From Cohnella sp. AR92 (GTDB taxonomy: Bacteria > Bacillota > Bacilli > Paenibacillales > Paenibacillaceae), in NCBI RefSeq assembly GCF_003990975.1, contig NZ_RZJR01000003.1:124001-188000 (forward strand): 64,000 nucleotides of DNA, read 5' to 3'. Position 1 is the stretch's first letter, and each line of letters starts with the position of its first letter. Made by a program: the position numbers and the translations under genes. The notes under the pieces were generated by a model. The model was not told where the DNA came from and searched no databases. It saw only the letters and a list, made by a program, of their open reading frames with translations. Positions 10,633-48,963 of this stretch are shown piece by piece.

Positions 10633-10666
10633 AGCTCCGACATCCTATAATCGGGGGGCTAAGTTT

Positions 10667-13570
10667 GTGGCCTTGTTCGTCATGATTCTGCGTAAAATGG
10701 TCAAAAACAAGTGGCTCGTCCTCAGCCTATTCTTGGGGATGGCCATCAGCGTGGCGCTCGTCAGCACGATGCCGATCTACTCCGAAGCGATTCTCTCGCG
10801 CATGCTGGTCAAGGAACTGGAGACGATGCAGCGCGATACCAACATCTACCCGGCTTCCTTATACGCCAAGGCTACCTTCTCTTCCGAAGAGCCCGAGAAG
10901 CGCCGGCAGATCTTGGAGAGCCTGGATGCTTATATGGCGGGCCAAGGAGCGGCCGCTTCTACCCTGCCCGTCATGGAGAAGGTCGTTCATCGGAACACGA
11001 GCACCTTCGATTCCTTGCCGCAAGACGCCGGCGATTCGGATCGGACGAAAGTTCGCTCCGTCCGTTTCTCGTCCATGTCCGGCTTGAAGAATCATATCAA
11101 ACTATTGGACGGAAGAATGCCGTCGCCGGAGCCGGTGGACGGCGTGTACGAGGTGCTTGTCACGGAAGAAGGTCTGAACAATCTGAAGACCGTGCTGGAC
11201 TCCGAGTTCGTTAGCGTCAACGATAAGGCGGCGGCCGGCACGCTTCGGTTCAAGCCGGTAGGCGTCTTCGAGAAGCTTCGCGACGACGACGTATACTTCT
11301 ACGTGCCCGGCATGTCGAATCTCAGCAATTCTTTAATGGTGGACGAAGGGCTGTTCACGCGCGATTTTGTAATCGGCAATAAGGTTAACGTCGCTAACAG
11401 CGTCTGGTATACGGTGCTGGACTATTCGAGAATGGAGCTTGGGCAAGTCGACAGCTTCGTGCAGGCAAGCAAGGATATGGAGAAGCAAGTCAAGCAGCGC
11501 GTCGGAGCCTTCCAGACCGATTTCAAGGCACCGGCACTGAAGACGATCGAGAGCTATCACCAGCGCGCCGCGAAGCTTCGAACTCTCATGTGGTCCTTGT
11601 TCGTTCCCGTGCTCATCATGCTGGGCTTCTATATGTTCATGGTGGCGAACCTGATCGCGAGCCGACAGAAGAACGAGATCGCGGTGCTGCGCAGCCGGGG
11701 AGCGGCTCGGTGGCAGATCGTCGCTTCTTTCGCAACGGAAGGAATACTGCTAAGCGCGGCCGCGCTCGCGGTCGGTCCGCCGATCGCCCTTCTCTTTACC
11801 AAGCTGCTCGGCGCCTCGAACGGCTTCCTGTCCTTCGTGTCGCGGGCTTCGCTGCTTGCCGGAATCACGCGGTCCGCCTATCTGTATGGAGCGATCGCGG
11901 CGGCGGCTTCGTTCCTCCTGCTGCTGATCCCCGTCCTGCTCGCGACCCGCGTCAGCATCGTCGGCCACAAGCAGCAGCTGGCCCGCCAGTCGAAGACGCC
12001 GCTCTGGCATAAGCTGTTCCTGGACGTCATCGCCGTAGCGATCGCCATATATGGCCTTTACGGCTTCCGAGAGCGATTGGATAACCTTAGAAGTCTAGGT
12101 CTGAATTCGACGGACCTGAATCTGGATCCGCTGCAATTCGTCGTGCCGGCGCTCTTCATCGTGGGATCGGGCCTGATCCTGCTGCGTCTGTATCCGTATA
12201 TGCTCCGCTTGATCTATTGGCTGGGACGGCGTTGGTGGAAGCCTTCGATGTACGCGACGCTTATTCAAGTGAGCCGGTCCAGCTCCCAATATCAATTCCT
12301 TATGGTATTCCTCATTCTGACGATCGCGACGGGCGTCTTCAGTGCCAGCGCCGCAAGAACCATCAACAGCAATACCGAGGACCGGATTCGGTACGCCAAC
12401 GGCGCGGATATCGTCCTGACCTCGTTCTGGCCGAACGACGCTCCGGCGCCCGGGGGTAGTTCCAATCCAATGGGAGGAGCGCCATCTGCCGCCGCTTCGG
12501 CTCCGGCTTTCGGCAATAAGAAGATCAACTATCTAGAACCGGCCTTCGACCCTTACGCGACTCTACCCGGAGTCGAGCATTCCGCCAAGGTGTTCACGAA
12601 GAAGGACGCGTACTTCTCCATGGGCGATGAATCGGCTAGCGTCACCTTGATGGGAATCGACACGGACGAATTCGGAATGACGACCTGGTTCCGGGACAGT
12701 CTGTTAAGCTATCCTCTTAACGATTATTTGAACCTGATCGCAATGGACTCGAAAGCGGTTCTAATCTCCAAGTCGCTGGCCGAGCAGAAGAATGTCAAGG
12801 TGGGGGACACGATCTGGATCGGCTGGACGGATACCGGCACGGCTTCCTTTGTCGTCTACGGGATCCTCGATTATTTTCCAACGTTCAATCCGAATCCTCC
12901 GGTCGGCTCCGTGGATGCCAGCGACGAGCAGACGAAGGCGAACGCCCCGATGCTGATCGTGGGCCACCTTCCGAGGATCCAGTTCCAGCTTGCTCTGGAG
13001 CCCTACGAAGTGTGGCTGAAGCTGAAGCCAGGCGCATCTTCGGAGAAGCTTTACGAAGCGATAGAGGAGAGGAAGCTCCCCGTCACCTCCGTGAAGAATA
13101 CGAGGCTGGATTGGAACCGCGCGAAGAACGACCCATTCCTTATGGCGATCAACGGAATTCTGACGCTGGGCTTCCTGATCTCGATCGCGGTCAGCTTTAC
13201 GGGATTCCTGCTCTACTGGATTCTATCGCTAAGAGGGAGGACGCTTCAGAACGGAATCATGAGGGCGATCGGGCTGTCCGTCAGGCAGATGGTCGGCATG
13301 CTCATCGTCGAGCAGCTCCTCACCTCCGGCCTTGCGGTGGCGATCGGCATTCTGGTCGGCAATCTGGCGAGCCTGCTGTACGTGCCCAACTTCCAGATCG
13401 CGTTCGACCCGAGCACGATGGTACCCCCGTTCAAGGTCATCTTCGATGCGATGGACTTCGCCCGATTGTATACGGTCGTTGCCGTCATGCTGCTTGCCGG
13501 GCTTGTCATCTTAGGAATGATGGTTTCCCGGACAAGAATTCATCAGGCGCTCAAGCTGGGGGAGGACTGA
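10667..13570 (+). CDS. FtsX-like ABC permease, large two-module form
   Basis: A 967-residue membrane protein with two FtsX permease modules. A first helix (about residues 13-33) and a long extracellular domain precede three helices around residues 305-425; a further extracellular domain (about residues 520-800) precedes the C-terminal three-helix FtsX domain with the LRGRTLQNGIMRAIGLSVRQM loop that contacts the ATPase. The duplicated layout resembles large MacB/BceB-like or LolCE-like permeases of Bacillota. GTG start at 10667 with GGGGGG 8 bp upstream. Substrate unknown; antimicrobial peptide or lipoprotein/peptide extrusion are both possible. Confidence 0.85.
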   Translation: MALFVMILRKMVKNKWLVLSLFLGMAISVALVSTMPIYSEAILSRMLVKELETMQRDTNIYPASLYAKATFSSEEPEKRRQILESLDAYMAGQGAAASTLPVMEKVVHRNTSTFDSLPQDAGDSDRTKVRSVRFSSMSGLKNHIKLLDGRMPSPEPVDGVYEVLVTEEGLNNLKTVLDSEFVSVNDKAAAGTLRFKPVGVFEKLRDDDVYFYVPGMSNLSNSLMVDEGLFTRDFVIGNKVNVANSVWYTVLDYSRMELGQVDSFVQASKDMEKQVKQRVGAFQTDFKAPALKTIESYHQRAAKLRTLMWSLFVPVLIMLGFYMFMVANLIASRQKNEIAVLRSRGAARWQIVASFATEGILLSAAALAVGPPIALLFTKLLGASNGFLSFVSRASLLAGITRSAYLYGAIAAAASFLLLLIPVLLATRVSIVGHKQQLARQSKTPLWHKLFLDVIAVAIAIYGLYGFRERLDNLRSLGLNSTDLNLDPLQFVVPALFIVGSGLILLRLYPYMLRLIYWLGRRWWKPSMYATLIQVSRSSSQYQFLMVFLILTIATGVFSASAARTINSNTEDRIRYANGADIVLTSFWPNDAPAPGGSSNPMGGAPSAAASAPAFGNKKINYLEPAFDPYATLPGVEHSAKVFTKKDAYFSMGDESASVTLMGIDTDEFGMTTWFRDSLLSYPLNDYLNLIAMDSKAVLISKSLAEQKNVKVGDTIWIGWTDTGTASFVVYGILDYFPTFNPNPPVGSVDASDEQTKANAPMLIVGHLPRIQFQLALEPYEVWLKLKPGASSEKLYEAIEERKLPVTSVKNTRLDWNRAKNDPFLMAINGILTLGFLISIAVSFTGFLLYWILSLRGRTLQNGIMRAIGLSVRQMVGMLIVEQLLTSGLAVAIGILVGNLASLLYVPNFQIAFDPSTMVPPFKVIFDAMDFARLYTVVAVMLLAGLVILGMMVSRTRIHQALKLGED

Positions 13571-35659: not shown

Positions 35660-37563
35660 GCAACCATGACAGGCAGCCTCCGGGCGGCGGGCGCGGCAGA
35701 GGTCCGGGGGGTCCAGGTAGAGGGCCAGGAGGACCTGGGTTCGGCGGCGGTCCGCACGGAATGATGATGCCCGGACAGAAGGCGAAGAACTTCAAGGGCT
35801 CGTTCCGCCGCTTGCTGGGCTATCTCCGTCCGTACCGTCTTAAGCTTCTGGCCGTTCTTTTCACAGCGATTTTGAGCACGGTTTTCTCGATTCTCAGCCC
35901 GAAAATCCTAGGCCAAGCCACCGATAAGCTCTTCGATGGAATCTTCCATCACAAGAGCATCGACTTCGCCGGAATCTGGCAGATCGTCGTTCTGCTGGCG
36001 GGATTATACGTGATCAGCTCGGCGTTCAGCTACCTTCAGCAATTCCTGATGGCCGGCGTCGCCCAACGAACCGTCTATCACTTGAGGAACGAAGTGAACG
36101 CGAAGCTCTCCAGGCTGCCGCTGAAGTACTTCGATACGAAGACGCACGGGGAGATCCTGAGCCGTGTCGTGAACGACGTCGACAACATCGCGAACACGCT
36201 GCAGCAGAGCTTGACCCAGATGATCACGTCGGTCGTCATGCTGATCGGGATCATCGTTATGATGCTGACGATCAGCCCGCTGCTCACGTTGATTCTCGTC
36301 CTGACGCTGCCGCTCAGCTTCCTGGTGATCAAATCCATCGCGTCCAAGTCCCAGGGCTACTTCAAGAATCAGCAAGCCGAGCTTGGTCAATTGAACGGTC
36401 ACGTCGAAGAGATGTATACCGGACACGCGATCGTGAAGGCGTTCGGGCAAGAAGAGAATTCGAAGGCGAAGTTCGAAGCGATCAACGAGAGACTGTATCA
36501 TGCCGGCTGGAGAGCCCAGTTCGTCTCGGGCATCATCATGCCGCTCATGAGCTTCATCGGCAATATCGGCTACGTCGCGATCAGCGTAGTCGGCGGGATT
36601 CTCGTCACGCGCCAATCGATCTCCGTCGGCGACATTCAAGCCTTCATTCAGTACGCGAGACAATTCACGATGCCGATCACCCAGACGGCGAACATCGCGA
36701 ACATCATCCAGTCGACGATCGCTTCCGCGGAGCGGGTGTTCGAGCTTCTGGACGAGACGGAGGAAGTGCCGGAGAAGCAAGGCCGGCTCAAGTCTTCCGA
36801 CGTTCACGGGGATGTCCGCTTGTCTGGCGTTCGCTTCAGCTACAAGAATGACGAGCCGCTGATCGAGAATCTGAACATCGACGTCCGGAGCGGGCAGACG
36901 GTTGCGATCGTCGGTCCGACCGGCGCCGGCAAGACGACGCTCGTCAATCTGCTCATGAGGTTCTACGAAGTGAACGGCGGTTCGATCGCGATCGACGGCA
37001 AGGACATCACCGAACTGAAGAGAGGCGATCTGCGCAGCTTGTTCGGCATGGTGCTTCAGGACACTTGGCTGTTCAACGGCACGATCAAGGACAACATCGC
37101 GTACGGGCGCGAAGGAGCGACGGAAGAGGAAGTCGTGCAAGCGGCCCGCGCCGCATACGCCGACCACTTCATCCGGACGCTGCCGGACGGGTACGAGACG
37201 GTGCTTAACGAAGAGGCGTCGAACATCTCCCAAGGGCAGAAGCAGCTGCTGACGATCGCCCGGGCGATTCTGGCCGACCCGGCCATCCTGATCCTGGACG
37301 AGGCGACGAGCAGCGTCGATACGCGCACCGAGATCCACATCCAGCAGGCGATGAACCGGTTGATGGAAGGCCGCACGAGCTTCGTTATCGCCCACCGGCT
37401 GTCGACGATCCGCGATGCCGACCTGATCCTGGTCATGGACAAAGGCGCGGTCATCGAGCAGGGTACGCATGAAGAGCTGCTGGCGCAAGGCGGCTTCTAC
37501 TCCGATCTGTACAACAGCCAGTTCGCGGGCGGCGTTCATCCGAGCGTGCCAAGCGCGATTTAA
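35656..37563 (+). CDS. Heterodimeric ABC exporter subunit with canonical ATPase (BmrD/YheH-like)
   Basis: A 635-residue half-transporter. It opens with a Gly/Pro/Arg-rich disordered tail (about residues 5-37, repeats of GRGPGGPG type), followed by six helices and an ATPase with Walker A GPTGAGKTT, signature ISQGQKQLLTIARAI (Gln for the second Ser/Gly position) and Walker B ILILDEATSSVD with the catalytic Glu. It therefore supplies the Walker B Glu that its partner lacks, while the partner supplies a canonical signature. ATG at 35656 overlaps the partner's stop and follows GAGGAGGAG. A terminator follows the gene. Confidence 0.92.
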   Translation: MSNHDRQPPGGGRGRGPGGPGRGPGGPGFGGGPHGMMMPGQKAKNFKGSFRRLLGYLRPYRLKLLAVLFTAILSTVFSILSPKILGQATDKLFDGIFHHKSIDFAGIWQIVVLLAGLYVISSAFSYLQQFLMAGVAQRTVYHLRNEVNAKLSRLPLKYFDTKTHGEILSRVVNDVDNIANTLQQSLTQMITSVVMLIGIIVMMLTISPLLTLILVLTLPLSFLVIKSIASKSQGYFKNQQAELGQLNGHVEEMYTGHAIVKAFGQEENSKAKFEAINERLYHAGWRAQFVSGIIMPLMSFIGNIGYVAISVVGGILVTRQSISVGDIQAFIQYARQFTMPITQTANIANIIQSTIASAERVFELLDETEEVPEKQGRLKSSDVHGDVRLSGVRFSYKNDEPLIENLNIDVRSGQTVAIVGPTGAGKTTLVNLLMRFYEVNGGSIAIDGKDITELKRGDLRSLFGMVLQDTWLFNGTIKDNIAYGREGATEEEVVQAARAAYADHFIRTLPDGYETVLNEEASNISQGQKQLLTIARAILADPAILILDEATSSVDTRTEIHIQQAMNRLMEGRTSFVIAHRLSTIRDADLILVMDKGAVIEQGTHEELLAQGGFYSDLYNSQFAGGVHPSVPSAI

Positions 37564-37578
37564 CGAATAGAAGCAGAG

Positions 37579-37610
37579 CGGCGTCGGGAGCGATCCCGGC
37601 GCCGTTTTTT
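37579..37610 (+). terminator. Intrinsic terminator of the heterodimeric exporter genes
   Basis: An 11-bp stem (37579-37589 with 37594-37604, one G-T pair), GCGA tetraloop and six T. Confidence 0.9.
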
Positions 37611-37770
37611 ACATGTCCGTGGTCGTTTGCCGCCTAGGCTTCCCCAACCCCGATTCCATCTCTGTCACCGATCCAGCTTTTAATCTTAGATTGATGATGA
37701 AGATCGTCAGCATTTAATTGCATATAGAACTTGTAAATCTTGCAATAGCAATTTTCGATAATGGGAAAGA

Positions 37771-37800
37771 TTGACGCCGGGAGAGAACCGGTGCTAGGAT
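37771..37800 (+). promoter_or_regulatory. Promoter of the lyase/importer operon
   Basis: TTGACG (37771-37776) and TAGGAT (37795-37800) with an 18-bp spacer. It lies just before the leader described next. Upstream to 37611 I see no gene; only AT-rich spacer after the exporter terminator. Confidence 0.55.
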
Positions 37801-37806
37801 GTGATA

Positions 37807-37899
37807 AAAGAAACCTAACATGTAGGAATTATCGGAATAACGCTGGCATCTACCAGATAACTGGAGACCAAATCCTTTACCGGAGAATGGTCTCTTTTT
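37807..37899 (+). promoter_or_regulatory. Leader RNA with attenuator terminator, class unknown
   Basis: The leader contains CCTA-ACATG-TAGG (37814-37826), then CTGG (37843-37846), CCAG (37853-37856) and CTGG (37861-37864), so that CCAG can pair with either flanking CTGG. An intrinsic terminator follows: GAGACCA (37864-37870) with TGGTCTC (37888-37894), then five T. The downstream CTGG shares a base with the terminator stem, so the alternative pairings could control termination. It ends about 57 nt before the start codon. I tested it by eye against purine, SAM, glycine, lysine, guanidine, TPP, cobalamin and T-box motifs and found no match. Confidence 0.55.
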
Positions 37900-37955
37900 G
37901 TTTCGCGCTTATCTATTGGGGTCAGCAAGATGATGCAGGATTGGAGCGAAGAACG

Positions 37956-39494
37956 ATGGGGAATGCGCGAAATCGACGGCGGGAGGAGGGAGACGTCTTC
38001 CCCGGCAGAACTTACGCGGAGGTCGTACTCGAACCGGCGTACGAACAGGCTCGGAAAGAGTTGCTTGGTCCAATGATCGCTATTAGCAAGGCGCACCTTA
38101 TCATGCTCGAAGAACAGCGGCTCGTAAGCGCCCAAGATGCTGCGATCGTTGCGAAGGCGCTTCAAGGTCTCGATCTGAAGAAACTGGAGAACGGCCAATA
38201 TACGGGGGAGTTTGAGGATCTATTCTTCGAGGTGGAGCATGAACTAGCCCTGCTAGGAGGTGAGGCGACAGGCCATCTGCATCTTGCGCGCAGCCGCAAC
38301 GACATGGGGATCGCCATCTACCGCTTCGTCCTGCGGGACAAAGTGTTGGCTCTCATCGATTCTGCGCTAGAACTGCAGGCGCGACTGATTGACTTCGCGG
38401 AAGATCATGCCGAGACGCTGATGATCGGCTACACGCATACGCAGCAGGCTCAGCCGACGACCGTCGGACATTATATGGCAGCGGTATCGGATTCGCTATC
38501 CCGGGACGTTCGGCGTCTGCGGGCTGCCTTCGCCAACTGCAACCGCAGCAGCTTGGGCGCTGCCGCGCTTACCACGACAGGCTTCGCGATCAGCCGGGAG
38601 CGAACGGCTGCGCTTCTTGGATTCGACGAGACGATAGCGAATGCGTATGACGCGGTCAGCGGGGCGGATTACATTCTTGAGATTGCCTCGTCCGCCTCGC
38701 TCGCCGCCGTCAATCTCGGCCGCTTCGTCCAGGAGCTGCTGCTCTGGGGCACGCAGGAATTCGCCGCCGTCACGGTAGCCGCTCCTTATGTGCAGATCAG
38801 CTCGATTATGCCGCAGAAGCGAAATCCGGTGTCGGTGGAGCACGTGCGCTCGCTGCTGTCGAGCTGCGTCGGTGACGCCAACACGGCGCTGACGATGGTT
38901 CACAACACGCCGTTCGGGGATATCGTCGATACGGAGGACGATCTTCAGCCCTACGTCTGGCGAAGTCTGCGCACGCTTGAATCGACGTATAGGCTTCTAA
39001 CCCGAATCATCGAAACGCTCGAGGTCGACAAGGACGTCTTGCGGCGAAGGGCTGAGGCGAGCTTCGCGACCGTCACCGAGCTAGCCGATACGCTGGTGCG
39101 CAAAGAAGGACTCGGGTTCCGCACGGCGCATTCTATCGTAGCTGAATTCGTTCGTGCGGCGGTTGCCTCAGGACGCTCGGTGAGGGAGCTGACGGTAGAA
39201 GGACTTGATGAAGCCGCGAAGAGCATAATCGGCAGGGAGTTGTCGCTGACTGCCGAAGAGCTGAGGCTGGCTCTTGATCCGGAACACTTCGTCCGGATTC
39301 GTTCCGTCCCCGGAGGGCCTAGCCCGGAAGAGCTGAGAAGGGCGCTCGCCGTGCAAGCTTCCTCCCGCAAGCTAGCGGAAGAATGGGCCGAACGAACGAG
39401 AGATTCGTTGGATTCCAGGCTCAAGATGCTGGATCGAATTCTAATCGAGCGGCTTCGCCGCTCGGATCATCCCGCAGGGGAAGCCGCGGATTAA
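37956..39494 (+). CDS. Argininosuccinate-lyase-like C-N lyase of unknown substrate
   Basis: A 512-residue member of the fumarase/aspartase superfamily. It keeps LHLARSRND (RSRND at residues 112-116), GYTHTQQAQPTTVGH with the active-site His, and the mobile catalytic loop SSIMPQKRNPVSVEH (from residue 282). These are argininosuccinate-lyase hallmarks, but the loop continues RNPVSVEH instead of KNPDSLE, and the protein is about 45 residues longer than ArgH. No argG is nearby; instead it leads an operon with a metal hydrolase, a sugar-type importer and an amine oxidase, so a catabolic lyase releasing fumarate or a related acid from an imported N-substituted amino acid is more likely. ATG at 37956 with GGAG 9 bp upstream. 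Confidence 0.82.
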   Translation: MGNARNRRREEGDVFPGRTYAEVVLEPAYEQARKELLGPMIAISKAHLIMLEEQRLVSAQDAAIVAKALQGLDLKKLENGQYTGEFEDLFFEVEHELALLGGEATGHLHLARSRNDMGIAIYRFVLRDKVLALIDSALELQARLIDFAEDHAETLMIGYTHTQQAQPTTVGHYMAAVSDSLSRDVRRLRAAFANCNRSSLGAAALTTTGFAISRERTAALLGFDETIANAYDAVSGADYILEIASSASLAAVNLGRFVQELLLWGTQEFAAVTVAAPYVQISSIMPQKRNPVSVEHVRSLLSSCVGDANTALTMVHNTPFGDIVDTEDDLQPYVWRSLRTLESTYRLLTRIIETLEVDKDVLRRRAEASFATVTELADTLVRKEGLGFRTAHSIVAEFVRAAVASGRSVRELTVEGLDEAAKSIIGRELSLTAEELRLALDPEHFVRIRSVPGGPSPEELRRALAVQASSRKLAEEWAERTRDSLDSRLKMLDRILIERLRRSDHPAGEAAD

Positions 39495-39516
39495 CGATTT
39501 AAAGGAGGAAGGAACG

Positions 39517-40467
39517 GTGTTTAGAGCTGGCTTCAAGGTGTTCGACATTCACGGACATTTGCCATACAACTATCCGAAATCATTCGAGAAGCACGACCGA
39601 ATTACCCAATACGGCGGCGAACGCTCGGAACGAATGCGCCTGACCTGGGATCTAAGGACAGAGGAGCCCGATCCCGAACAAGCAGGAAGGCCGCTCGTCG
39701 AACGGTGGAAGGACGAACTCGACCGGTATGGGATCGGGGGACTTAACTTCCTGACAGGCTGGACGAACGACGAACTTGCGAAGCAGATTGAGGCTTATCC
39801 GGATCGATTTACCGGATTCGCTTCCCATCCGATCGAACGGCCCGACGCCGCGGCAGAACTGAAGCGCGCCGTTGAAGATCTCGGTCTTCGAGGCTACAAG
39901 CTGTTCGGTCCGTTCACGCCTGTCTCGTTCGACGACGAATCGCTCACGCCGGTGTGGGAACTGCTCTCCGAACGAGGCTTGCCTCTCCTCATCCACTTCG
40001 GCCTGCTGGGACACGCGGGGGGAATCGTCTCGCATCCGAACATCAGCCCGCTGGCGATCTTCAACGTAGCGCGCCGATATCCCGATATCCCGATCATCAT
40101 TCCGCATTTCGGCTGCGGCTACTTCCAGGAGCTGCTCCATCTGTGCTGGAGCTGTCCGAACGTCTACGTCGACACCTCAGGCTCTAATCAATGGATCCGC
40201 TGGATGCCATACGAGTTGACGCTCGAAACGTTGTTTAGGAAGACATACGAGCTGATCGGACCGGAGCGAATTATCTTCGGCACCGATTCGATCAGCTTTC
40301 CTAGAGGTTATAACTATCGCTACTTACAGGATCAAATCCGCGTCGTCCGCGACCTTCGCTTCTCCGATCATGAGATCGAATCGATCTTCGGCAACAATGC
40401 AAGAAAGCTGCTTCGGCTGGAGCCATCCAGCCCGCTAATCGAATCCAAGGAGCTGACTCGTACATGA
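39517..40467 (+). CDS. Amidohydrolase-2-type TIM-barrel metal hydrolase or decarboxylase
   Basis: A 316-residue protein with the metal-site pattern of the amidohydrolase superfamily: HxH at residues 12 and 14 (FDIHGH), a His in LLIHFGLLGHAGG, a His in IIIPHFGCGYFQELLH and Asp in IIFGTDSISFPRGYN. This is the Amidohydro_2 group that includes ACMSD and resorcylate decarboxylases as well as true hydrolases, so the reaction cannot be fixed. GTG at 39517 follows AAAGGAGG by 8 bp. It starts 22 bp after the lyase gene and overlaps the binding-protein gene by 4 bp. Confidence 0.82.
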   Translation: MFRAGFKVFDIHGHLPYNYPKSFEKHDRITQYGGERSERMRLTWDLRTEEPDPEQAGRPLVERWKDELDRYGIGGLNFLTGWTNDELAKQIEAYPDRFTGFASHPIERPDAAAELKRAVEDLGLRGYKLFGPFTPVSFDDESLTPVWELLSERGLPLLIHFGLLGHAGGIVSHPNISPLAIFNVARRYPDIPIIIPHFGCGYFQELLHLCWSCPNVYVDTSGSNQWIRWMPYELTLETLFRKTYELIGPERIIFGTDSISFPRGYNYRYLQDQIRVVRDLRFSDHEIESIFGNNARKLLRLEPSSPLIESKELTRT

Positions 40468-41837
40468 ACCCGATCATTAAAATTGCCAAGCCATTGTCTC
40501 TGCTCGCAGCCGCATCTTTGCTGCTAACCGCCTGCGGAGGGAACAACACGAACAATTCCGCGGCCGCACCGTCGTCCGCTCCCCCAAGCGGTGCCTCAGC
40601 CTCGCCGTCCGCTTCCGCCGCGGCCGGCGGCGACTCTCAGGAGAAAGTGACAATCGAATACTGGCAGTACGAGTACCCGTCCAAGGTCGCGCTCATCGAC
40701 GAACTGATCGAGCAATTCGAGGCGCAGAACCCGAACATCAAGGTTAAGCAGACGAACTTCCCGTACGATCAATATAACGAGAAGGTCGCGACGCTCGTTC
40801 CGGCCGGCAAGGGGCCTGACGTCATCAATCTGTATTATGGCTGGCTGCCGAAGTATGTCTCCTCCGGTTTCCTGCAGCCGCTTCCCGAATCCGCCTTCCC
40901 GGCGAACGAGATCGAGAGCAAGTATTATCCGCTTGTGGATGCGGCCAAGATCGACGGTACCTATTGGGCGATTCCGACCGCCGTGCGCACGCTTGCTTTG
41001 TTCTACAATAAGGATCTGTTCGCGAAGGCGAAAATCGCAGAGCCTCCAACGACGTGGGAGGAACTGGTCGAGGATAGCCTGAAGCTGACGGAGAAGGATT
41101 CTAACGATCAATTCGTCGTCGAGGGCCTAGCATGGGAGCCGGGAGCGCAGCTTCACCACTGGTACCGCGACGGGCTGCTGCCTCAGGCAGGCGGCCAAGA
41201 CCTCAGCGATGACCGCCGCAAGATTCTGTGGGCGGACACGCCGGCAGGCCTGGAGGCGTTCCAATACCTGATCGACTTCGCGGTCAAACATAAGGTCGGG
41301 ACTACGGGCGTCTTCACGGACGACGTCACCGCCTTTAAAACGGGGCACGCGGCTATCAACATCGACGGTTCGTTCCGTCTCGGATCCTTGAAGGCGGACG
41401 CTCCCGACTTGAATTACGGCGTCGCTCAGCTGCCGTCCTATAAGAGCAAATCGGCGCCGTCCTCGTTCTGGGCGAACGCGATTCCGGCAGGCGTAACCGG
41501 GGCTAAGCTGGACGCCTCGATCAAGTTCCTGCAATTCCTGACAAGCAAAGAAGTTCAGGAGCAGTGGGTGGATAAGGTCGGCGAGCTTCCTGCTCAGAAA
41601 GAGGTCGCGACTCAAGATAAATACCTGAACGATGAGAAGCTCGGGCCATTCATCCGTCAGCTCGACAACAGCAAGGCTCACTTCTTCATCGACGAGACCG
41701 GCGAGCGGACGCTGTTCGTCGACGCGACGAATGAGGTCCTTCTCAACAAGGTACCTGTCGAGACGGCGTTTAAGGACCTCGTGGCCAAGACTCAGAAGCT
41801 GTACGACGACTACTGGGCTAAAGCAGATAAGAAGTAA
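40464..41837 (+). CDS. Extracellular solute-binding lipoprotein, sugar (family 1) type
   Basis: A 457-residue binding protein. Its signal ends in lipobox LLTAC with the modified Cys at residue 24, followed by an Asn/Ser/Ala/Pro linker. The mature part, VTIEYWQYEYPSKVALIDELIEQFEAQNPNIKVKQTNFPYDQYNEKVATLVPAGKGPDVINLYYGWLP, is typical of CUT1 importers for sugars and sugar conjugates. Its start overlaps the hydrolase stop (ATGA). Because the neighbouring enzymes act on amine or amino-acid bonds, the ligand may be a glycoconjugate or another polyol-like amine, not a plain sugar. Confidence 0.9.
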   Translation: MNPIIKIAKPLSLLAAASLLLTACGGNNTNNSAAAPSSAPPSGASASPSASAAAGGDSQEKVTIEYWQYEYPSKVALIDELIEQFEAQNPNIKVKQTNFPYDQYNEKVATLVPAGKGPDVINLYYGWLPKYVSSGFLQPLPESAFPANEIESKYYPLVDAAKIDGTYWAIPTAVRTLALFYNKDLFAKAKIAEPPTTWEELVEDSLKLTEKDSNDQFVVEGLAWEPGAQLHHWYRDGLLPQAGGQDLSDDRRKILWADTPAGLEAFQYLIDFAVKHKVGTTGVFTDDVTAFKTGHAAINIDGSFRLGSLKADAPDLNYGVAQLPSYKSKSAPSSFWANAIPAGVTGAKLDASIKFLQFLTSKEVQEQWVDKVGELPAQKEVATQDKYLNDEKLGPFIRQLDNSKAHFFIDETGERTLFVDATNEVLLNKVPVETAFKDLVAKTQKLYDDYWAKADKK

Positions 41838-41903
41838 CGGGGTAGAGGGGGCGCCGGGCGTGATCCGGCGCCCGCTTGCCTATGAATAAGGAGGGGTGAC
41901 CGA

Positions 41904-42839
41904 ATGATCTCGAACGAGACCCGGCGCCGGGCGGAAGCAGGGCGCAAGCCGCTGTCGTTTCGCTTGAACTACCGTTCGCAACGATATCTTTTTATCTATC
42001 TGATGCTAGGCATACCGCTGCTGTATTTTCTTCTTACCCGGCTCGTTCCGATTCTGTACTCCTTCAATATAAGCTTCCGAGAATGGGATGTGCTCTCTCC
42101 GGAGAAGCCCTTCGTCGGTTGGGCCAACTTCTCCGGCCTGTTCAAGGACGAGGCGTTCCGCAAGTCGCTGACGAATACGTTCCTATACGTCGCAGTGGGC
42201 ATTCCCGGCCAACTGGCCGCCGGTCTCGCCGTCGCCCTGATGCTGCAGAACGTGAAGCGGCTGCGAGGCTTCTTCCGAACGGTCTACTTTATCCCGTATA
42301 TCACGAGCATCGTCGCGGTGAGCTGGGTGTTCCGCTGGCTGCTCATGCCTAACGGATGGATCAACGGCCAGCTTCTCAGCTTAGGCTTACCCGCGCAGCC
42401 ATTTCTGCAGTCTCCCGATCAAGCCCCGTTTGTCGTTGCCCTTTCGATGATCTGGCAGAGCGTCGGTTTCCAGATGCTGATTTTCTTGACGGGGCTGGAG
42501 GGGATTCCGAAGATGTACCACGAAGCCGCCCATATTGACGGAGCGAATGCCTGGCGACGATTCCGACACATCACGGTGCCTCTTCTCAATCCCATCATTC
42601 TGTTCTCGGCCGTCATCGCCGGCATCTCGTATCTTCAGTCCTTCGCGCATATCGTCAGCATGACCCAGGACGGAGGCCCGCTTAACTCGACTCGAACGCT
42701 CGTCTATCATATCTACAAGCTAGCGTTCAAGAGCTTCGACATGGGAAGCGCTTCGGCAGCCACCGTCGTCCTGTTCGTTCTCATTCTGGCGTTCACGCTG
42801 CTCCAGCTCAAAATTCTTAATCGCAAAATCGACTACTGA
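41904..42839 (+). CDS. ABC importer permease, MalF/UgpA type
   Basis: A 311-residue membrane subunit with six predicted helices. The EAA motif lies near residue 210 (YHEAAHIDGANAWRRFRHITVPLL). It begins 67 bp after the binding-protein gene with AAGGAGG 12 bp upstream. It pairs with the next permease. There is no ATPase gene, so a shared MsmX-type ATPase elsewhere in the genome is expected. Confidence 0.9.
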   Translation: MISNETRRRAEAGRKPLSFRLNYRSQRYLFIYLMLGIPLLYFLLTRLVPILYSFNISFREWDVLSPEKPFVGWANFSGLFKDEAFRKSLTNTFLYVAVGIPGQLAAGLAVALMLQNVKRLRGFFRTVYFIPYITSIVAVSWVFRWLLMPNGWINGQLLSLGLPAQPFLQSPDQAPFVVALSMIWQSVGFQMLIFLTGLEGIPKMYHEAAHIDGANAWRRFRHITVPLLNPIILFSAVIAGISYLQSFAHIVSMTQDGGPLNSTRTLVYHIYKLAFKSFDMGSASAATVVLFVLILAFTLLQLKILNRKIDY

Positions 42840-42852
42840 CAGGAGGAACCGT

Positions 42853-43752
42853 ATGAACCCGAACCCGAACCCGAATTCGAACCCGAACCCGGGCCAATCC
42901 CGAAATCTCTCTGGCTGGATGAGCGGGAAATCCTTGGTTAACGGGTCCAGGTCGTTTCTTCTTTATCTGCTATTGTTCGCGGGGGTCGCCGTGACTCTGT
43001 TCCCATTCCTGTGGATGGCGGCCTCCTCGTTCAAGGAGCCCAAGGATCTGTTCGATCTGAGCCTGATTCCATCGCCCGCGACCTGGAGCAATTACGGAGA
43101 TTTGTTCGTCAAGGCTCCATTCGGGCGATGGATTGCAAACACGGCGGTCGTGGCTGTCTCCACGACGGTGTCGGTGTTGGTATTCGATACGATCGTGGGC
43201 TATGTGCTTGCTAAATTCGTTTTTCCCGGGAGAACGGTCATCTTCGTCGTTATTATAAGCACGCTGATGGTCCCCACCGAGATGCTTATCATTCCCTGGT
43301 ACTTGCTGGCCTCGAAGCTAGGGCTGTCGGATACGTACGCCGGCCTGCTGCTGCCGGGTCTGATCTCCGCGTTCGGGATATTCCTCATGCGGCAGTTCAT
43401 GGAGTCGCTCCCTTCGGAGCTTCTGGACGCGGCGCGCATCGATGGGTTAAACGAGTGGAGAGTGTTCTCTTCCATCGCCGTTCCTCTCATGAAGCCAGCC
43501 TTGGCGACACTCGCTATCCTAAGCTTCATCTCAAGCTGGAATCAGTTCATCTGGCCCTTCATCGTGCTGCAGACTGAGAACAAATACACGCTTCCAGTCG
43601 GCATGGTTTATTTCTCCAGCGAGCTGAAGGACAATAGCGGATGGATCCTGATCATGACGGCCGCCACGGTCTCCGTCCTTCCGCTGATCGTTGTCTTCTT
43701 GATTTTCCAGAAACGAATTATTCAAGGGATTGCTTTAAGCGGGATGAAGTAA
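42853..43752 (+). CDS. ABC importer permease, MalG/UgpE type
   Basis: A 299-residue partner permease with the EAA motif SELLDAARIDGLNEWRVFSSIAVPLM. Its N-terminus is odd: residues 2-13 are alternating Asn-Pro (NPNPNPNSNPNP), encoded by tandem AACCCG hexamers at 42856-42891, a segment that could vary in length by slippage. AGGAGG lies 7 bp before the ATG. The cytosolic tail should not disturb transport, since the first helix starts near residue 35. Confidence 0.9.
   Translation: MNPNPNPNSNPNPGQSRNLSGWMSGKSLVNGSRSFLLYLLLFAGVAVTLFPFLWMAASSFKEPKDLFDLSLIPSPATWSNYGDLFVKAPFGRWIANTAVVAVSTTVSVLVFDTIVGYVLAKFVFPGRTVIFVVIISTLMVPTEMLIIPWYLLASKLGLSDTYAGLLLPGLISAFGIFLMRQFMESLPSELLDAARIDGLNEWRVFSSIAVPLMKPALATLAILSFISSWNQFIWPFIVLQTENKYTLPVGMVYFSSELKDNSGWILIMTAATVSVLPLIVVFLIFQKRIIQGIALSGMK
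42856..42891 (+). repeat. AACCCG hexanucleotide repeat inside a permease gene
   Basis: Six 6-bp units, five AACCCG and one AATTCG, directly behind the ATG of the second permease. Changes in unit number keep the frame and alter the Asn-Pro tail. Confidence 0.8.
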
Positions 43753-43769
43753 AGGAGCGGGAATACGAG

Positions 43770-44915
43770 ATGAGTCCATTAACGAAAAAATACGATGTCA
43801 TCGTGGTTGGCGCCGGTTCGATGGGGATGAGCGCGGGTTACGAATTGGCCCGAAGAGGCGCGGAGACGCTGCTGATCGACGCATTCGACCCGCCGCATGG
43901 AGAAGGGAGCCATCATGGCGAGCCGAGGCTGATTCGCCATGCCTATAGCGGCGGTCCCGCTTATGTCAGCCTGGTCCTTAGAGCGGATGAGAAGTGGCGA
44001 CAATTGGAGGAAGCCACGGGGCTGAGACTTCTGGATAGAGCTGGCGTTCTCAACATGGCGGATATCGACGCTTACAACTTTCGCGAACGTCAATTCGATG
44101 CGCAGAGGCAAGGAGTTGCGGTGGAATGGTTGACAGGGGAACAGATCCGCAAGCGTTGGCCGGGCGTGCGCGTTCCGGACAGCTTCCATGGAATGTACGA
44201 ACCGAATGCCGGATATTTATACAGCGAGAGATGCGTTGCCGCCTACAAGCAGGAGGCGTTGCGATCCGGCGCGAAGCTTGCGGCGAACACCTTCGTCACG
44301 GGCCTTAAGGTGGAGAAAGACAGCAGCGTGACCGTACAAACGAAGGATGGAAGCTATTATGCCGAGCGAGTCGTCTTGAGCGCGGGCGCCTGGTTCAATT
44401 CTCTGCGGCCTTTCGTCAACCTGCCGATTCGCCCGTTGCGCAAAGTCGTCGGGTGGTTCGAGACGTCCGAATCGTCGTTTAATAGCGATGTGTTTCCCGG
44501 CTTTACGATCGGCACCAAGAACGGCAGCTTCTATGGGTTTCCGAGCATCGACGGCGCCGGCGTCAAGATCGGCCGCCATGACGGCGGCGTTCCATGGGAG
44601 CCGGGCAAGCCGATGGCTCCGTTCGGAGCTTACCCGGAAGATGAAGAAGACTTGCGGCGGGCGCTGGAGACCTATTTGCCCGGAGCGGCGGGCAAGCTGC
44701 TTCGCGGCGCGGCGTGCAAATACGAGATGTCGCCGGATGAGCACTTTATCATCGACAGACATCCGCATTACAAGAACGTAATCGTGGCTGGGGGATTCTC
44801 CGGTCACGGATTTAAATTCGCAAGCGCGGCAGGCGAAGTGTTGGCGGACTTGGCTTTGAACGGAAGCACCTCCTGGGATCTATCGCCGTTTCGCTTGGGC
44901 CGATTCTCTCTCTAA
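43770..44915 (+). CDS. Covalent-FAD amine oxidase, monomeric sarcosine oxidase/SolA family
   Basis: A 381-residue flavoprotein that oxidises secondary amines such as N-methyl amino acids with oxygen. It has the FAD dinucleotide fold YDVIVVGAGSMGMSAGYELARRG, the family segment GSHHGEPRLIRHAY, and Cys316 within GAACKYEMSPDEHFIIDRHP, the position at which monomeric sarcosine oxidases bind FAD covalently. Lys in GAGVKIGRHDGG matches the oxygen-activating Lys. The same family includes N-methyltryptophan oxidase and fructosyl-amino-acid oxidases, so glycated amines are possible substrates. ATG at 43770 with AAAGGAG upstream. The stop codon lies in an 8-bp CT/AG hairpin (44906-44924). Confidence 0.87.
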   Translation: MSPLTKKYDVIVVGAGSMGMSAGYELARRGAETLLIDAFDPPHGEGSHHGEPRLIRHAYSGGPAYVSLVLRADEKWRQLEEATGLRLLDRAGVLNMADIDAYNFRERQFDAQRQGVAVEWLTGEQIRKRWPGVRVPDSFHGMYEPNAGYLYSERCVAAYKQEALRSGAKLAANTFVTGLKVEKDSSVTVQTKDGSYYAERVVLSAGAWFNSLRPFVNLPIRPLRKVVGWFETSESSFNSDVFPGFTIGTKNGSFYGFPSIDGAGVKIGRHDGGVPWEPGKPMAPFGAYPEDEEDLRRALETYLPGAAGKLLRGAACKYEMSPDEHFIIDRHPHYKNVIVAGGFSGHGFKFASAAGEVLADLALNGSTSWDLSPFRLGRFSL

Positions 44916-45185: not shown

Positions 45186-45944
45186 ATGTCGATCAAGAAG
45201 TGGAATCTCGCGCTTACGGGAGCGCTCGCGATCGCCTTGCTGTCCGGCTGCGGATCGAAATCGGATCATGCTTCGGCGGGCGGCGCGCAGACTCAGACGG
45301 ACAACGGCAGCGCTCAAGGCGGACAGGGACAAGGCGGCAATCGCGGCGGCTTTGGCGGAGGCATGGTCGATGCTAACGGGAATACGGCGGACATGCTGGG
45401 CAAGATCAAAAGCATCAACGGCAACACGATTACGGTGTACAAGTCGAGCTTCGACCCCGGCCAGATGCGCGGCGGCATGAGAAGCGGACAGGGAGGACAA
45501 GGCGGTCAAAGCGGGCAAAACGGAGATGGCGTTCAACCGCCGAGCGGAGCGCCGGATTCCTCGAACGGAGGACAACCTCCCGCGGACGGACAAATGCCGA
45601 GCGGAGCACCCGATGGCGCCAACAAAGGCAATGGCGGCGGTCGTCCAGGCGGCGGGATGGCCAACATGTTCACCGACGAGACCGTCGATATCACGGTGAC
45701 CGACGCGACCGTCATTCAGAAGACTTCGTTCGAGAACAACGAGATGACGACGACGGACGTCGCGCTCTCCGACCTGAAGGCGGACGATGTGCTGACGATC
45801 TGGCTGACCGAAGGAACGCAAGAAGCGGCAACGATCAAGATCGGCGGCTTCGGCGGAGGCATGGGACGAGGCGGTCAAGGTGGAGAGCAAGGCCAAGCCC
45901 AAGACGGTCAAGCACCTGCCGCAAGCGATTCGGCCTCGCAATAG
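45186..45944 (+). CDS. Gly/Gln-rich lipoprotein of unknown function
   Basis: A 252-residue putative lipoprotein: signal followed by lipobox ALLSGC (Cys at residue 22). Two low-complexity Gly/Gln/Pro/Ser regions (about residues 30-60 and 95-160) and a Gly-rich tail flank two short ordered pieces: ADMLGKIKSINGNTITVYKSS and VDITVTDATVIQKTSFENN with LSDLKADDVLTIWLTEGT. These ordered pieces resemble the OB-like DUF5666 pattern of small secreted proteins, but I am not certain. AGGAGGA lies upstream of the ATG. Surface exposure is clear, function is not. Confidence 0.78.
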   Translation: MSIKKWNLALTGALAIALLSGCGSKSDHASAGGAQTQTDNGSAQGGQGQGGNRGGFGGGMVDANGNTADMLGKIKSINGNTITVYKSSFDPGQMRGGMRSGQGGQGGQSGQNGDGVQPPSGAPDSSNGGQPPADGQMPSGAPDGANKGNGGGRPGGGMANMFTDETVDITVTDATVIQKTSFENNEMTTTDVALSDLKADDVLTIWLTEGTQEAATIKIGGFGGGMGRGGQGGEQGQAQDGQAPAASDSASQ

Positions 45945-46713: not shown

Positions 46714-47352
46714 ATGTCTAAGAACTTAATGCAAGCTCTGTCCGAAGAGAAAATCGTCGCGATCATTCGCGGGATCTCCGCCGAATCCGGAGATGCAACG
46801 GCTGAAGCGCTGTATCAAGGCGGAATTGTTTTCCTGGAAGTTACGCTCAATACGGACGGCGCGCTCGGCATGATCTCCCGTTTCAAAGAGAAGTACGAGG
46901 GACGCATGAGAATCGGCGCGGGCACGGTGCTCGATATCGGCCAGGCCAAGGAAGCGGTAGCCGCGGGAGCGGAATATCTCATCTCTCCTAACCTGGATGA
47001 GGAAGTCGTCTATTACGGCGTGGAGCAGGGCGTGGAAGTATGGCCGGGCACGATGACGCCGACCGAGATCGTACGCGCATACAAGGCGGGGGCATCCGCC
47101 GTTAAGGTGTTTCCGCTCGGCTCGTTGGGAGTGAACTACCTGAAGGAGATTCGCGGTCCTCTCAATCATATCCCGATGGTAGCGACAGGCGGAGTCAACC
47201 TGAACAATATCCGCACCGTGCTCGATGCGGGCGCGATTGCCGTCGGACTCGGCGGCAACCTCGTGGACAAGCAGCTGGTCAAGGAAGGCAAGTTCGACGA
47301 GCTGACCAAGCTGGCGCAAGCGTTCGTGGCGGAGGTTAAGGGGACAAAATGA
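46714..47352 (+). CDS. eda: 2-dehydro-3-deoxy-phosphogluconate/4-hydroxy-2-oxoglutarate aldolase
   Basis: A 212-residue class I aldolase that cleaves KDPG to pyruvate and glyceraldehyde 3-phosphate. The Schiff-base Lys is residue 131 in AGASAVKVFPLG; the catalytic Glu region is in IVAIIRG and FLEVTLNTDG, and RIGAGTVLD is the conserved phosphate-near motif. It overlaps the kinase gene by 4 bp, so the two provide the last steps of uronate or gluconate breakdown (KDG to KDPG to triose plus pyruvate). Pectin-type sugars are the likely source, in keeping with the glycosidase genes downstream. Confidence 0.92.
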   Translation: MSKNLMQALSEEKIVAIIRGISAESGDATAEALYQGGIVFLEVTLNTDGALGMISRFKEKYEGRMRIGAGTVLDIGQAKEAVAAGAEYLISPNLDEEVVYYGVEQGVEVWPGTMTPTEIVRAYKAGASAVKVFPLGSLGVNYLKEIRGPLNHIPMVATGGVNLNNIRTVLDAGAIAVGLGGNLVDKQLVKEGKFDELTKLAQAFVAEVKGTK

Positions 47353-48341
47353 CAAAGGGCAACGGACGAGGGATAGACGTAGTCACGATAGGGGAGAGCA
47401 TGGTTCTCCTTCAGCCGATGAATGAGGGTCCTCTCGCCTATGCGCCGCTCTTTACCCGTTCGATCGCGGGGGCGGAGTCCAACGTGGCGATCGGCCTTTC
47501 CCGGCTTGGGCTGAAGGTTCGCTGGATCAGCCGGCTCGGCACGGATCCGTTCGGAGACTTGATTCTATCGACGCTTGCGGGCGAAGGAGTAGACGTCAGT
47601 CTGGCGGAGCGGGACTCCGCTTATCCGACCGCGGTCTACTTCAAGGAATTCAAGGGCTATGGCGATCCGAACGTCTACTATTACCGGAAGGGCTCGGCGG
47701 TCAGCAAGCTGACGGCGGAGAACGTCGACGCCGGCTGGTTCGAAGGCGCAAGCCACCTTCACGTGACGGGAATTACGCCCGCTCTCGGTGAAGGCACGGC
47801 CGACGCGGTGCGGGCGGCGATGATCGAAGCCCGCAAGCAAGGGCTGACGATCTCCTTCGACCCGAACCTCCGCCGCAAGCTTTGGAGCGAGGAGAAGGCC
47901 AGAGAGACGCTGTTGTCCCTGATCCCGCTGTGCGATGTGTTTATGCCGGGCTTGGAGGAAGCGGAGTTTCTCGTCGGCGAGATGACGGAGGAAAGCTACG
48001 GCGCTCACTTCCTCTCCATGGGAGCGAAGGCTGTCGTCCTTAAACTCGGGGAAGCGGGCTCGATCGGCTTCACGCCGCTCGCCGCTTACCGGGCTAAGCC
48101 GCATACCGTCAAGCATGTGGTGGATACGGTCGGCGCAGGCGATGCGTTCGCCGCGGGCTTCCTGTCGTCTTGGCTGACGTACGATCCGAACGGGGAAGAC
48201 GCCGAACGCCTCGAGCACGCCTTGGGCCGCGCCAACCTGATGGGGGCGCTTGCCACCCAGTACAAGGGCGACTGGGAAGGGCTGCCGAAGCTCGCCGAAG
48301 TCGAGCGGCTGCTGTCCGGCGGACGCGAGACGACGCGGTAA
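47349..48341 (+). CDS. kdgK: 2-dehydro-3-deoxygluconokinase, PfkB family
   Basis: A 330-residue ribokinase-fold sugar kinase: N-terminal GESMVLLQPMNEGPL, first PfkB signature GAESNVAIGLSRLG, and second signature DTVGAGDAFAAGFLSSWL with the catalytic Asp at residue 265. The pairing with a KDPG aldolase by a 4-bp overlap identifies KDG as the substrate. A terminator follows immediately and overlaps the end of the convergent DinB gene. Confidence 0.92.
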   Translation: MTKGNGRGIDVVTIGESMVLLQPMNEGPLAYAPLFTRSIAGAESNVAIGLSRLGLKVRWISRLGTDPFGDLILSTLAGEGVDVSLAERDSAYPTAVYFKEFKGYGDPNVYYYRKGSAVSKLTAENVDAGWFEGASHLHVTGITPALGEGTADAVRAAMIEARKQGLTISFDPNLRRKLWSEEKARETLLSLIPLCDVFMPGLEEAEFLVGEMTEESYGAHFLSMGAKAVVLKLGEAGSIGFTPLAAYRAKPHTVKHVVDTVGAGDAFAAGFLSSWLTYDPNGEDAERLEHALGRANLMGALATQYKGDWEGLPKLAEVERLLSGGRETTR

Positions 48342-48359: not shown

Positions 48360-48413
48360 AAGGTCAGTCCGGGTCGGGTATCCCTATAGGGCATTCCCCG
48401 GATTGGCCTTTTT
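48360..48413 (+). terminator. Intrinsic terminator after kdgK
   Basis: A 14-bp stem (48360-48373 with 48397-48410, two G-T pairs) followed by TTTTTG. Its 3' half lies inside the end of the convergent DinB gene. Confidence 0.82.
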
Positions 48414-48929
48414 GTCGCGGAACCGCTTCCGAAGCAGATTGATATGGGCTTGATGATAACGGCTGTGATCGGCGATGTGCCATAATCCCCAGCGAACGGT
48501 CGCCCGCTTCTCGTTCTCATGACCGTAAGCGACGACGGTGTCGAGGTCTTCGTCGGTAAGATCGACGCATGTCTCTCGAAGCAGATGAAGCACGGCCTCA
48601 TAGTCGGAGATCAGCGAATGCAAGGACTGACCGATGACCATCGGAAGCTTGCCGTCCGGTTCGATCATGGGGCCGTATTGCCCTGCTAACGATTGCGGAA
48701 GCGGCTGTCCCTTGATTCGATAAACCCAGTTCAGATCGACACGTGACAGATGCCGGATTAATTGCGCCGTACTATTCGAAGCTTGATCGGGCCCCCTGTA
48801 ATCGACTTCTTCCTGCGACATGCCATCGGTGATGGCTCTCAACCGAAGGTTATTCTCCCTCACGGCGGAGTAGAGCATCCCGACGATCGGGGTCATGTCC
48901 GCTGCGCCTTGCAGATCGTTAATCTTCAT
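48384..48929 (-). CDS. DinB-family protein
   Basis: A 181-residue DinB/DfsB-fold helical protein with the metal His pattern LIRHLSRVDLNWVYR, then VAYGHENE and WHIADHSRYHQAHINLLRKRF. Such proteins are often thiol transferases or damage-response proteins; the function of this one is unknown. I prefer the ATG at 48929, which follows GGAGGG and GGGAG, over that at 48959. It lies 34 bp downstream of the AraC-type gene on the same strand. Confidence 0.8.
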   Translation of the reverse strand: MKINDLQGAADMTPIVGMLYSAVRENNLRLRAITDGMSQEEVDYRGPDQASNSTAQLIRHLSRVDLNWVYRIKGQPLPQSLAGQYGPMIEPDGKLPMVIGQSLHSLISDYEAVLHLLRETCVDLTDEDLDTVVAYGHENEKRATVRWGLWHIADHSRYHQAHINLLRKRFRDKKANPGNAL

Positions 48930-48963
48930 TTTCTCCCGATCCCTCCAGAAGTTCCTCATTCTC

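Follow-up and report, generated by a model that had tools for sequence, protein, structure and literature searches.

A widespread operon family built around a lyase mislabelled as argininosuccinate lyase, with a probable role in the breakdown of bacillithiol

The window analysed here is a stretch of 64,000 nucleotides from Cohnella sp. AR92 (assembly GCF_003990975.1, contig NZ_RZJR01000003.1, positions 124,001 to 188,000), whose genome comprises 6.02 Mb in 36 contigs. It contains six closely packed genes on the plus strand, separated, from lyase to oxidase, by 22, -4, 66, 13 and 17 bases, as the sequence-only reading of this stretch had described (six genes in one direction with overlaps or short gaps). 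The first gene (37956..39494) encodes a protein of 512 residues resembling argininosuccinate lyase (PF00206 and PF14698, i.e. Lyase_1 and ASL_C2), which we predict to be a glucosaminyl-malate fumarate-lyase. It is followed by a metal-dependent hydrolase of the Amidohydro_2 family (39517..40467; PF04909), possibly an amide hydrolase; by a sugar-type solute-binding lipoprotein (40464..41837; SBP_bac_8), whose gene overlaps the preceding one by 4 bases and whose lipobox, LTAC, was read directly; by two permeases of the ATP-binding cassette (ABC) type, A (41904..42839) and B (42853..43752), both with a BPD_transp_1 domain; and by an accessory flavoenzyme of the monomeric sarcosine oxidase (MSOX) or N-methyltryptophan oxidase type (43770..44915; DAO domain). 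No ABC ATPase gene was found within the operon, and the importer would use a shared ATPase from elsewhere in the genome. Position 37771, formerly given as the start of the operon, proved to be the -35 element of a promoter-like site; the lyase starts at 37956, since alignments with its relatives begin near the in-frame ATG at this position.

Argininosuccinate lyase is the source name shown among 120 listed homologues of the lyase, and its score against the argH family TIGR00838 (341.5 bits) exceeds the cut-off (279.5 bits). That it is a genuine ArgH is nevertheless hardly credible. There is no argG in the 64-kb window, as had been noted before; this did not extend to the genome, which has an argG-argH pair (C20:36044-38667). 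The argH adjacent to argG scored 663 bits. When 16 of the lyase genomes were searched with the argH family, a further, higher-scoring ArgH (579-683 bits) turned up in 13, and the other three, those of loci L043, L047 and L077, gave only scores of the lyase-family type. The motifs SRND, THxQ and SSIMPQKRNP, which we take to form the fumarate site in relatives, are retained in the lyase family, whereas the loop on the arginine side, present in 14 ArgH rows as PL(A/T)Y(N/S/D)KDMQEDK or near it, is replaced by HNTPFGDIVDTED. The form HNTPxGDIVDTEDD was constant but for one position across 25 aligned members; looser forms occurred in alphaproteobacterial and Chloroflexota members (HNTPFTDMNDSE; HNxPxGDTQDIED), and the loops of L050 and L077 diverged further than these.

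Further evidence was obtained from a tree of 42 rows (24 of the family, 15 ArgH, ethylenediaminedisuccinate (EDDS) lyase, L206 and a Lyase_1 row from the own genome). A single branch, found in 100% of 200 bootstrap trees, parted the 24 family rows from the 15 ArgH rows (support 83/100), and the family's own branch had a support of 80/91. The separate argG-argH pair, the lost loop and the separation in the tree exclude arginine synthesis and, judged by these features, the lyase is not ArgH despite its database label. The earlier placing of the lyase outside arginine biosynthesis held, also by the refuting conditions set with it, argG having an argH of its own and the gene set being conserved. 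EDDS lyase, L206 and the Lyase_1 row fell in neither group, and their places in the tree are unsure. The L206 protein (Rhizobium sp. CF080) is an extra ASL-like paralogue that belongs neither to ArgH nor to the window-lyase family (SSIMPQKKNMLALEYFR, VKGSNYSIGLDSVREG).

We searched 247 genomes, the own one included, for the lyase (E <= 1e-130) and found it in 62 of them, at 67 places. A contig scan gave at least 80 named lyase loci in Bacillota, Acidobacteriota, Chloroflexota, Pseudomonadota and others. To these were added 60 of the 66 places found in relatives, each as a sequence of at most 20 kb; six were left out. Including the window, the total came to 141 loci. Twelve were removed because their lyase shared 97% identity or more with one already included, which left 129 distinct loci, 29 of them incomplete stretches. 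Neighbours were annotated with profiles built from recurrent clusters and named via representatives with Pfam and NCBIfam. The order lyase, Amidohydro_2, binding protein, permease A, permease B recurred in many genomes, beyond chance, and the conserved unit is these five genes. The operon family is real, widespread and mislabelled.

Two main layouts were seen. Type A consists of a ROK regulator, a PhnS-like binding protein, an ATPase, a PhnU/V-like permease, a long PIG-L protein, the lyase, a BadF kinase and a short PIG-L protein; type B, that of the window, of the lyase, Amidohydro_2, the binding protein and two permeases, in this order or rearranged. In most alphaproteobacterial loci the lyase and a divergent long PIG-L accompany a type-B importer and an ATPase, often together with a PfkB kinase; the binding-protein family of the window is shared with these loci. 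The type-B binding protein was present at 63 loci, of which 35 had Amidohydro_2, 22 a long PIG-L and six neither, and among 29 with the PhnU/V-like permease, long PIG-L and BadF kinase each occurred in 26, short PIG-L in 19 and Amidohydro_2 in none. Several names are those of the nearest NCBIfam models at scores below their cut-offs: NagK_SO3507 for the BadF kinase (91-98 bits, cut-off 370), NagC/Mlc for the ROK regulators, PhnS and PhnU for the type-A binding protein and permease, and BshB2 for the short PIG-L (112-120 bits, cut-off 195). Other genes were seen at single groups of loci. A creatininase-family gene lies between the long PIG-L and the lyase in L019 (9217-9996), its cluster being present also in L017. 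In loci of the Lysinibacillus type (L024, L026-L029), genes for a GNAT acetyltransferase (not found in L026) and/or an EamA-type exporter precede the lyase.

Bacillithiol is made up of cysteine, glucosamine (GlcN) and malate. PIG-L deacylases were present at 61 of the 129 distinct loci, against about 1% expected by chance (20 lyase genomes, about 115 Mb in all, contain 59 PIG-L genes), and BadF or PfkB kinases at 45. A PIG-L protein, an amino-sugar-type kinase and a NagC-like regulator match parts of Cys-GlcN-malate, and this suggested bacillithiol as the substrate. Gene order in relatives shows that the lyase family is linked to bacillithiol genes. In three genomes of three genera and two families (G047, G196, G205), bshB2 (281-288 bits, cut-off 195) lies 0.4-1.5 kb after the lyase, each genome having a further bshB2 elsewhere. 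The order in L168 is lyase, BadF, DUF1806, bshB2, of which the last two presumably resemble yojF-yojG of B. subtilis. In L058, from an acidobacterial metagenome-assembled genome (MAG), bshB1, bshA, a long PIG-L and the lyase are consecutive on one strand, and bshC converges on them. There bshA scored 500 bits (cut-off 274) and bshC 431.5 bits (cut-off 266); bshB1 was split into two open reading frames of 93.9 and 143.5 bits, each below the cut-off. BshA is described as making N-acetylglucosaminyl (GlcNAc)-malate (PMC4360819).

Because the lyase cluster sits among bacillithiol-synthesis genes in a few bacteria, we consider it fairly likely that the operon takes up bacillithiol, one of its conjugates or its glucosaminyl-malate portion and breaks it down. 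The lyase is predicted to split off the O-linked malate as fumarate and thereby to release the amino sugar. No bsh gene was found in the window's own locus; elsewhere the host has bshC (505 bits), bshB1 (268 bits) and bshB2 (283 bits), all over their cut-offs. Among 47 genomes checked, from the 80 named lyase loci and many of them MAGs, bshC was over its cut-off in 22: in 15 of 15 Bacilli and in seven of eight Acidobacteriota, the eighth having a fragment, and in none of 16 Alphaproteobacteria or eight other genomes. Lyase genomes without bacillithiol synthesis would be scavengers.

The Amidohydro_2 protein of the window scored 135.8 bits against PF04909 (cut-off 26.4), and its HxH, H, H, D pattern (H12, H14, H160, H197, D257), which we take to be the metal ligands, was invariant in 37 relatives. 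Long PIG-L was found at 57 and Amidohydro_2 at 35 of the 129 loci and the two never together, against 15.5 joint occurrences expected if they were independent, a contrast that is inflated by related genomes. Since they never share a locus, Amidohydro_2 may be the amide hydrolase of the window operon. The compartment of the long PIG-L was assessed by a crude hydrophobicity measure of the N terminus (a threshold of 1.7 set by us; rows including near-duplicates; two fragments without the motif excluded). A secretion-like N terminus was found in 32 of 33 rows beside the PhnU/V-like permease of PhnS-like importers and in 7 of 7 beside SSF or TonB genes, and was lacking in 21 of 23 beside the type-B importer; in L063 it is secretion-like only through residues ahead of the likely start. 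This fits a type A in which the molecule is cut outside and the product imported, and a type-B importer that takes up the intact molecule; by that reasoning the cut in type B would fall to Amidohydro_2.

The sequence-only reading had put weight on the oxidase, and had proposed a substrate such as a glycated amino acid, an opine or an N-succinyl compound. The oxidase scored 433 bits against the N-methyl-L-tryptophan oxidase model NF008425 (PRK11259; cut-off 257) and 405 bits against 1el5, with similarity over its full length. Its FAD-binding cysteine, presumably the covalent flavin link of MSOX, was aligned and, as had been claimed, retained. Of the supposed six-gene set, however, only the five-gene core recurred: an MSOX gene lay within 9.5 kb of the lyase at just seven of the 129 loci, downstream of it in three (the window, L126, L128), upstream and divergent in three (L162, L164, L165), and also in L169, copies of differing arrangements being 53-58% identical. 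A homologue (E <= 1e-70) was present in 33 of the 38 lyase genomes searched, within 10 kb of the lyase in seven, within 20 kb in three more and not within 20 kb in 23. MSOX was rejected as a core part, being near the lyase at so few loci and mostly unlinked elsewhere; the oxidase is accessory to the operon. N-methylcysteine is a possible substrate for it, since nmbA, a gene for N-methyl-bacillithiol, occurs in some Paenibacillus (PMC6282198, PMC12719100).

These data bear on the possibility that a secondary-amine conjugate (glycated aspartate, N-succinyl or opine-like) is imported, cleaved by C-N elimination to fumarate and an amine, and the amine oxidised by the MSOX-type enzyme. Cleavage of C-N bonds is what known argininosuccinate and EDDS lyases do, the closest relative of solved structure is EDDS lyase (the predicted lyase structure, of mean pLDDT 86.6, matched it best, with a TM score to the query of 0.82-0.84), and the genomes with a lyase and MSOX close together show more than one arrangement. 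Asp 290 of EDDS lyase, at a site beside the SSIMPQK loop that was varied in 6rx8, is Val in 25 of 25 aligned family members, however, and this explanation leaves the PIG-L proteins, the amino-sugar kinases and the linkage to bshA, bshB and bshC unaccounted for, while resting on an enzyme outside the core. We regard it as unlikely. The recurring neighbours (PIG-L, sugar kinases, NagC-like regulators and a few bacillithiol genes) speak against the substrate class first proposed; the idea of a conserved, undescribed and probably catabolic operon stands.

For bacillithiol as the substrate, the following route can be proposed. The lipoprotein and the two permeases, with an ATPase from elsewhere, would import the glycoside. 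A cytoplasmic hydrolase would cut the amide on GlcN, PIG-L in alphaproteobacteria and possibly Amidohydro_2 here; this is the weakest of the core steps. The lyase would then release the sugar by an elimination on the L-malate moiety, comparable to the loss of water from malate in the fumarase reaction; what is observed for this step is the retained fumarate-side motifs and the replaced loop. The amino sugar would be passed on by a sugar kinase, which most PIG-L-type loci contain and the window operon lacks, and, more speculatively, the MSOX-type enzyme may demethylate N-methylcysteine derived from N-methyl-bacillithiol.

Several findings weigh against this reading. Few lyase genomes (3 of 62) show the bshB2 linkage, and a full bsh cluster was found once, in L058. 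The assignments of the kinase, the regulator and the short PIG-L all fall under the NCBIfam cut-offs, a BadF or PfkB kinase occurs at one of the 35 Amidohydro_2 loci, and the window operon has no sugar kinase gene. The structures closest to Amidohydro_2 are decarboxylases, lactonase-like proteins and uncharacterised amidohydrolases, so that no function can be assigned to it from structure. In L128 its gene (about 10620-10980, minus strand) is internally deleted while lyase, importer and oxidase remain. At 35 of the 129 loci the stretch contains neither PIG-L nor Amidohydro_2; in L087 (an Ensifer draft) and L073 (a MAG), whose loci lack Amidohydro_2, PIG-L is absent genome-wide (E <= 1e-5) despite a lyase and a type-B importer. 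The long PIG-L of L047 breaks the compartment rule, being secretion-like beside a type-B importer. Finally, L168 and L030 carry Amidohydro_2 beside bshB2, so that it is not simply a substitute for every PIG-L, an idea that is weakened accordingly; genomes with Amidohydro_2 hold other PIG-L genes elsewhere (one, two and five in those of L041, L043 and L048).

Another possibility is that of two substrates, bacillithiol for the PIG-L-type loci and another malate- or aspartate-linked compound, attacked by the same lyase chemistry, for the Amidohydro_2 type. In each of the five relatives that have two lyases, the two loci are of different types, as if they were not redundant, the hydrolases have unrelated folds, and a kinase is as good as absent from type B. 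The type-B and the alphaproteobacterial PIG-L loci have a common importer family, however, and L168, L169 and L030 join the type-B importer, the lyase and bshB2, which makes two substrates a rather doubtful proposition. A role in repair rather than nutrition, in which the lyase would strip fumarate off S-(2-succino) adducts of bacillithiol or cysteine, would be in line with the finding that 2SL, of the same superfamily, frees fumarate from the thiol adduct N-acetyl-S-(2-succino)cysteine (PMC9706529), and with the thioredoxin, rhodanese and flavin mononucleotide (FMN) monooxygenase genes before some type-B lyases and GNAT genes before some others. We think it improbable, because importers, secreted PIG-L proteins and sugar kinases suit the uptake of a sugar compound. 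The genes concerned are an NtaA/DmoA-type FMN monooxygenase, a rhodanese and a thioredoxin-like protein before the lyase in L154 (4052-6958) and in like places in L143, L155 and L157 (L154, L155 and L157 are near-identical); L140 has a thioredoxin-like gene there. This set is possibly a sulfur branch.

The promoter-like site lies at 37771..37800 on the plus strand (TTGACG, 18 nt, TAGGAT, with TG ahead). It is weak on its own, since seven such sites were found in the region against 4.1 expected; TTGAC and a CTA..AT stretch recur upstream of related lyases. A conserved leader element, TCTACCAG-N4-CTGGAGACC (37849..37899, plus strand), overlaps a terminator hairpin (GAGACC/GGTCTC followed by T5). 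The pattern TCKACCRGnnnnCTGGAGACC has one exact copy in the genome, and one or two mismatches at five other places, against four for a reversed control; exact copies of the element stand at 10 distinct lyase loci, counting that of the window. A model of it, R1, which is almost sequence only, matched 12 of 52 stretches, namely nine of its own building blocks and L133, L134 and L171, all of type-B layout. No Rfam family matched the window or the leader at its gathering score, and two weak matches (37575-37603 and 37540-37611) fall at the hairpin after the preceding gene. RNAalifold gave four pairs without compensatory change, so that a riboswitch is unproven; the leader is possibly an attenuator or a riboswitch.

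Downstream of the operon lie a Gly/Gln-rich predicted lipoprotein without Pfam match (45186-45944) and a 2-keto-3-deoxy-6-phosphogluconate (KDPG) aldolase followed by a PfkB kinase resembling 2-keto-3-deoxygluconate kinase (46714-48341). None of these recurred near the lyase in the 36 resolved loci among 42 of Amidohydro_2 or similar type, no lyase frame having been picked in the other six. A DinB-type protein (48384-48959, minus strand), 3.5 kb beyond the operon, scored 63.7 bits against the Pfam family MST (mycothiol-S-transferase), which includes thiol S-transferases.

Among the open-licence papers listed in our searches we found none on a pathway for bacillithiol breakdown or on removal of its malate, and bacillithiol derivatives are perhaps the most widespread bacterial thiols (PMC6282198). 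At its boldest, the proposal would be a first bacillithiol breakdown pathway, with C-O cleavage of glucosaminyl-malate to fumarate and glucosamine by a fumarase-superfamily enzyme, Amidohydro_2 as a new type of bacillithiol amidase, an MSOX-type enzyme that demethylates the cysteine of N-methyl-bacillithiol, a leader riboswitch sensing a piece of bacillithiol, and Alphaproteobacteria that eat the bacillithiol they are unable to make; this whole combination we put forward with little confidence. The mislabelled lyase family makes bacillithiol breakdown directly testable. If true, the lyase reaction, the release of fumarate from sugar-linked malate, would be new, many genes of Bacilli, Acidobacteriota, Chloroflexota and Alphaproteobacteria would receive a corrected label, and bacillithiol would appear to be a nutrient passed between bacteria.

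Compared with known systems, the lyase shares with ArgH (TIGR00838) its fold, length and fumarate-side motifs and a score over the family cut-off, and differs from it by the loop (HNTPFGDIVDTED for PL(A/T)Y(N/S)KDMQEDK), by its separate group in the tree and by not being linked to argG. EDDS lyase of Chelativorans (6g3d) is the best solved relative by sequence (236-234 bits) as well as by fold; it is 28-29% identical to the window lyase, which has Val in place of its Asp 290, and no amino-sugar or thiol genes are known near it. The oxidase resembles MSOX and N-methyltryptophan oxidase in its score to PRK11259 and its flavin cysteine, and stands apart as an accessory of an operon. The S-(2-succino) lyase 2SL, compared here by description only, likewise releases fumarate and belongs to an importer-linked cluster, its substrate being N-acetyl-S-(2-succino)cysteine (PMC9706529). 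Lastly, BshA, BshB, BshC and the conjugate amidase Bca act on GlcNAc-malate, GlcN-malate and bacillithiol conjugates (PMC4360819) and adjoin the lyase in some genomes; they make or trim bacillithiol and none is known to remove the malate, which is the step predicted here for the lyase.

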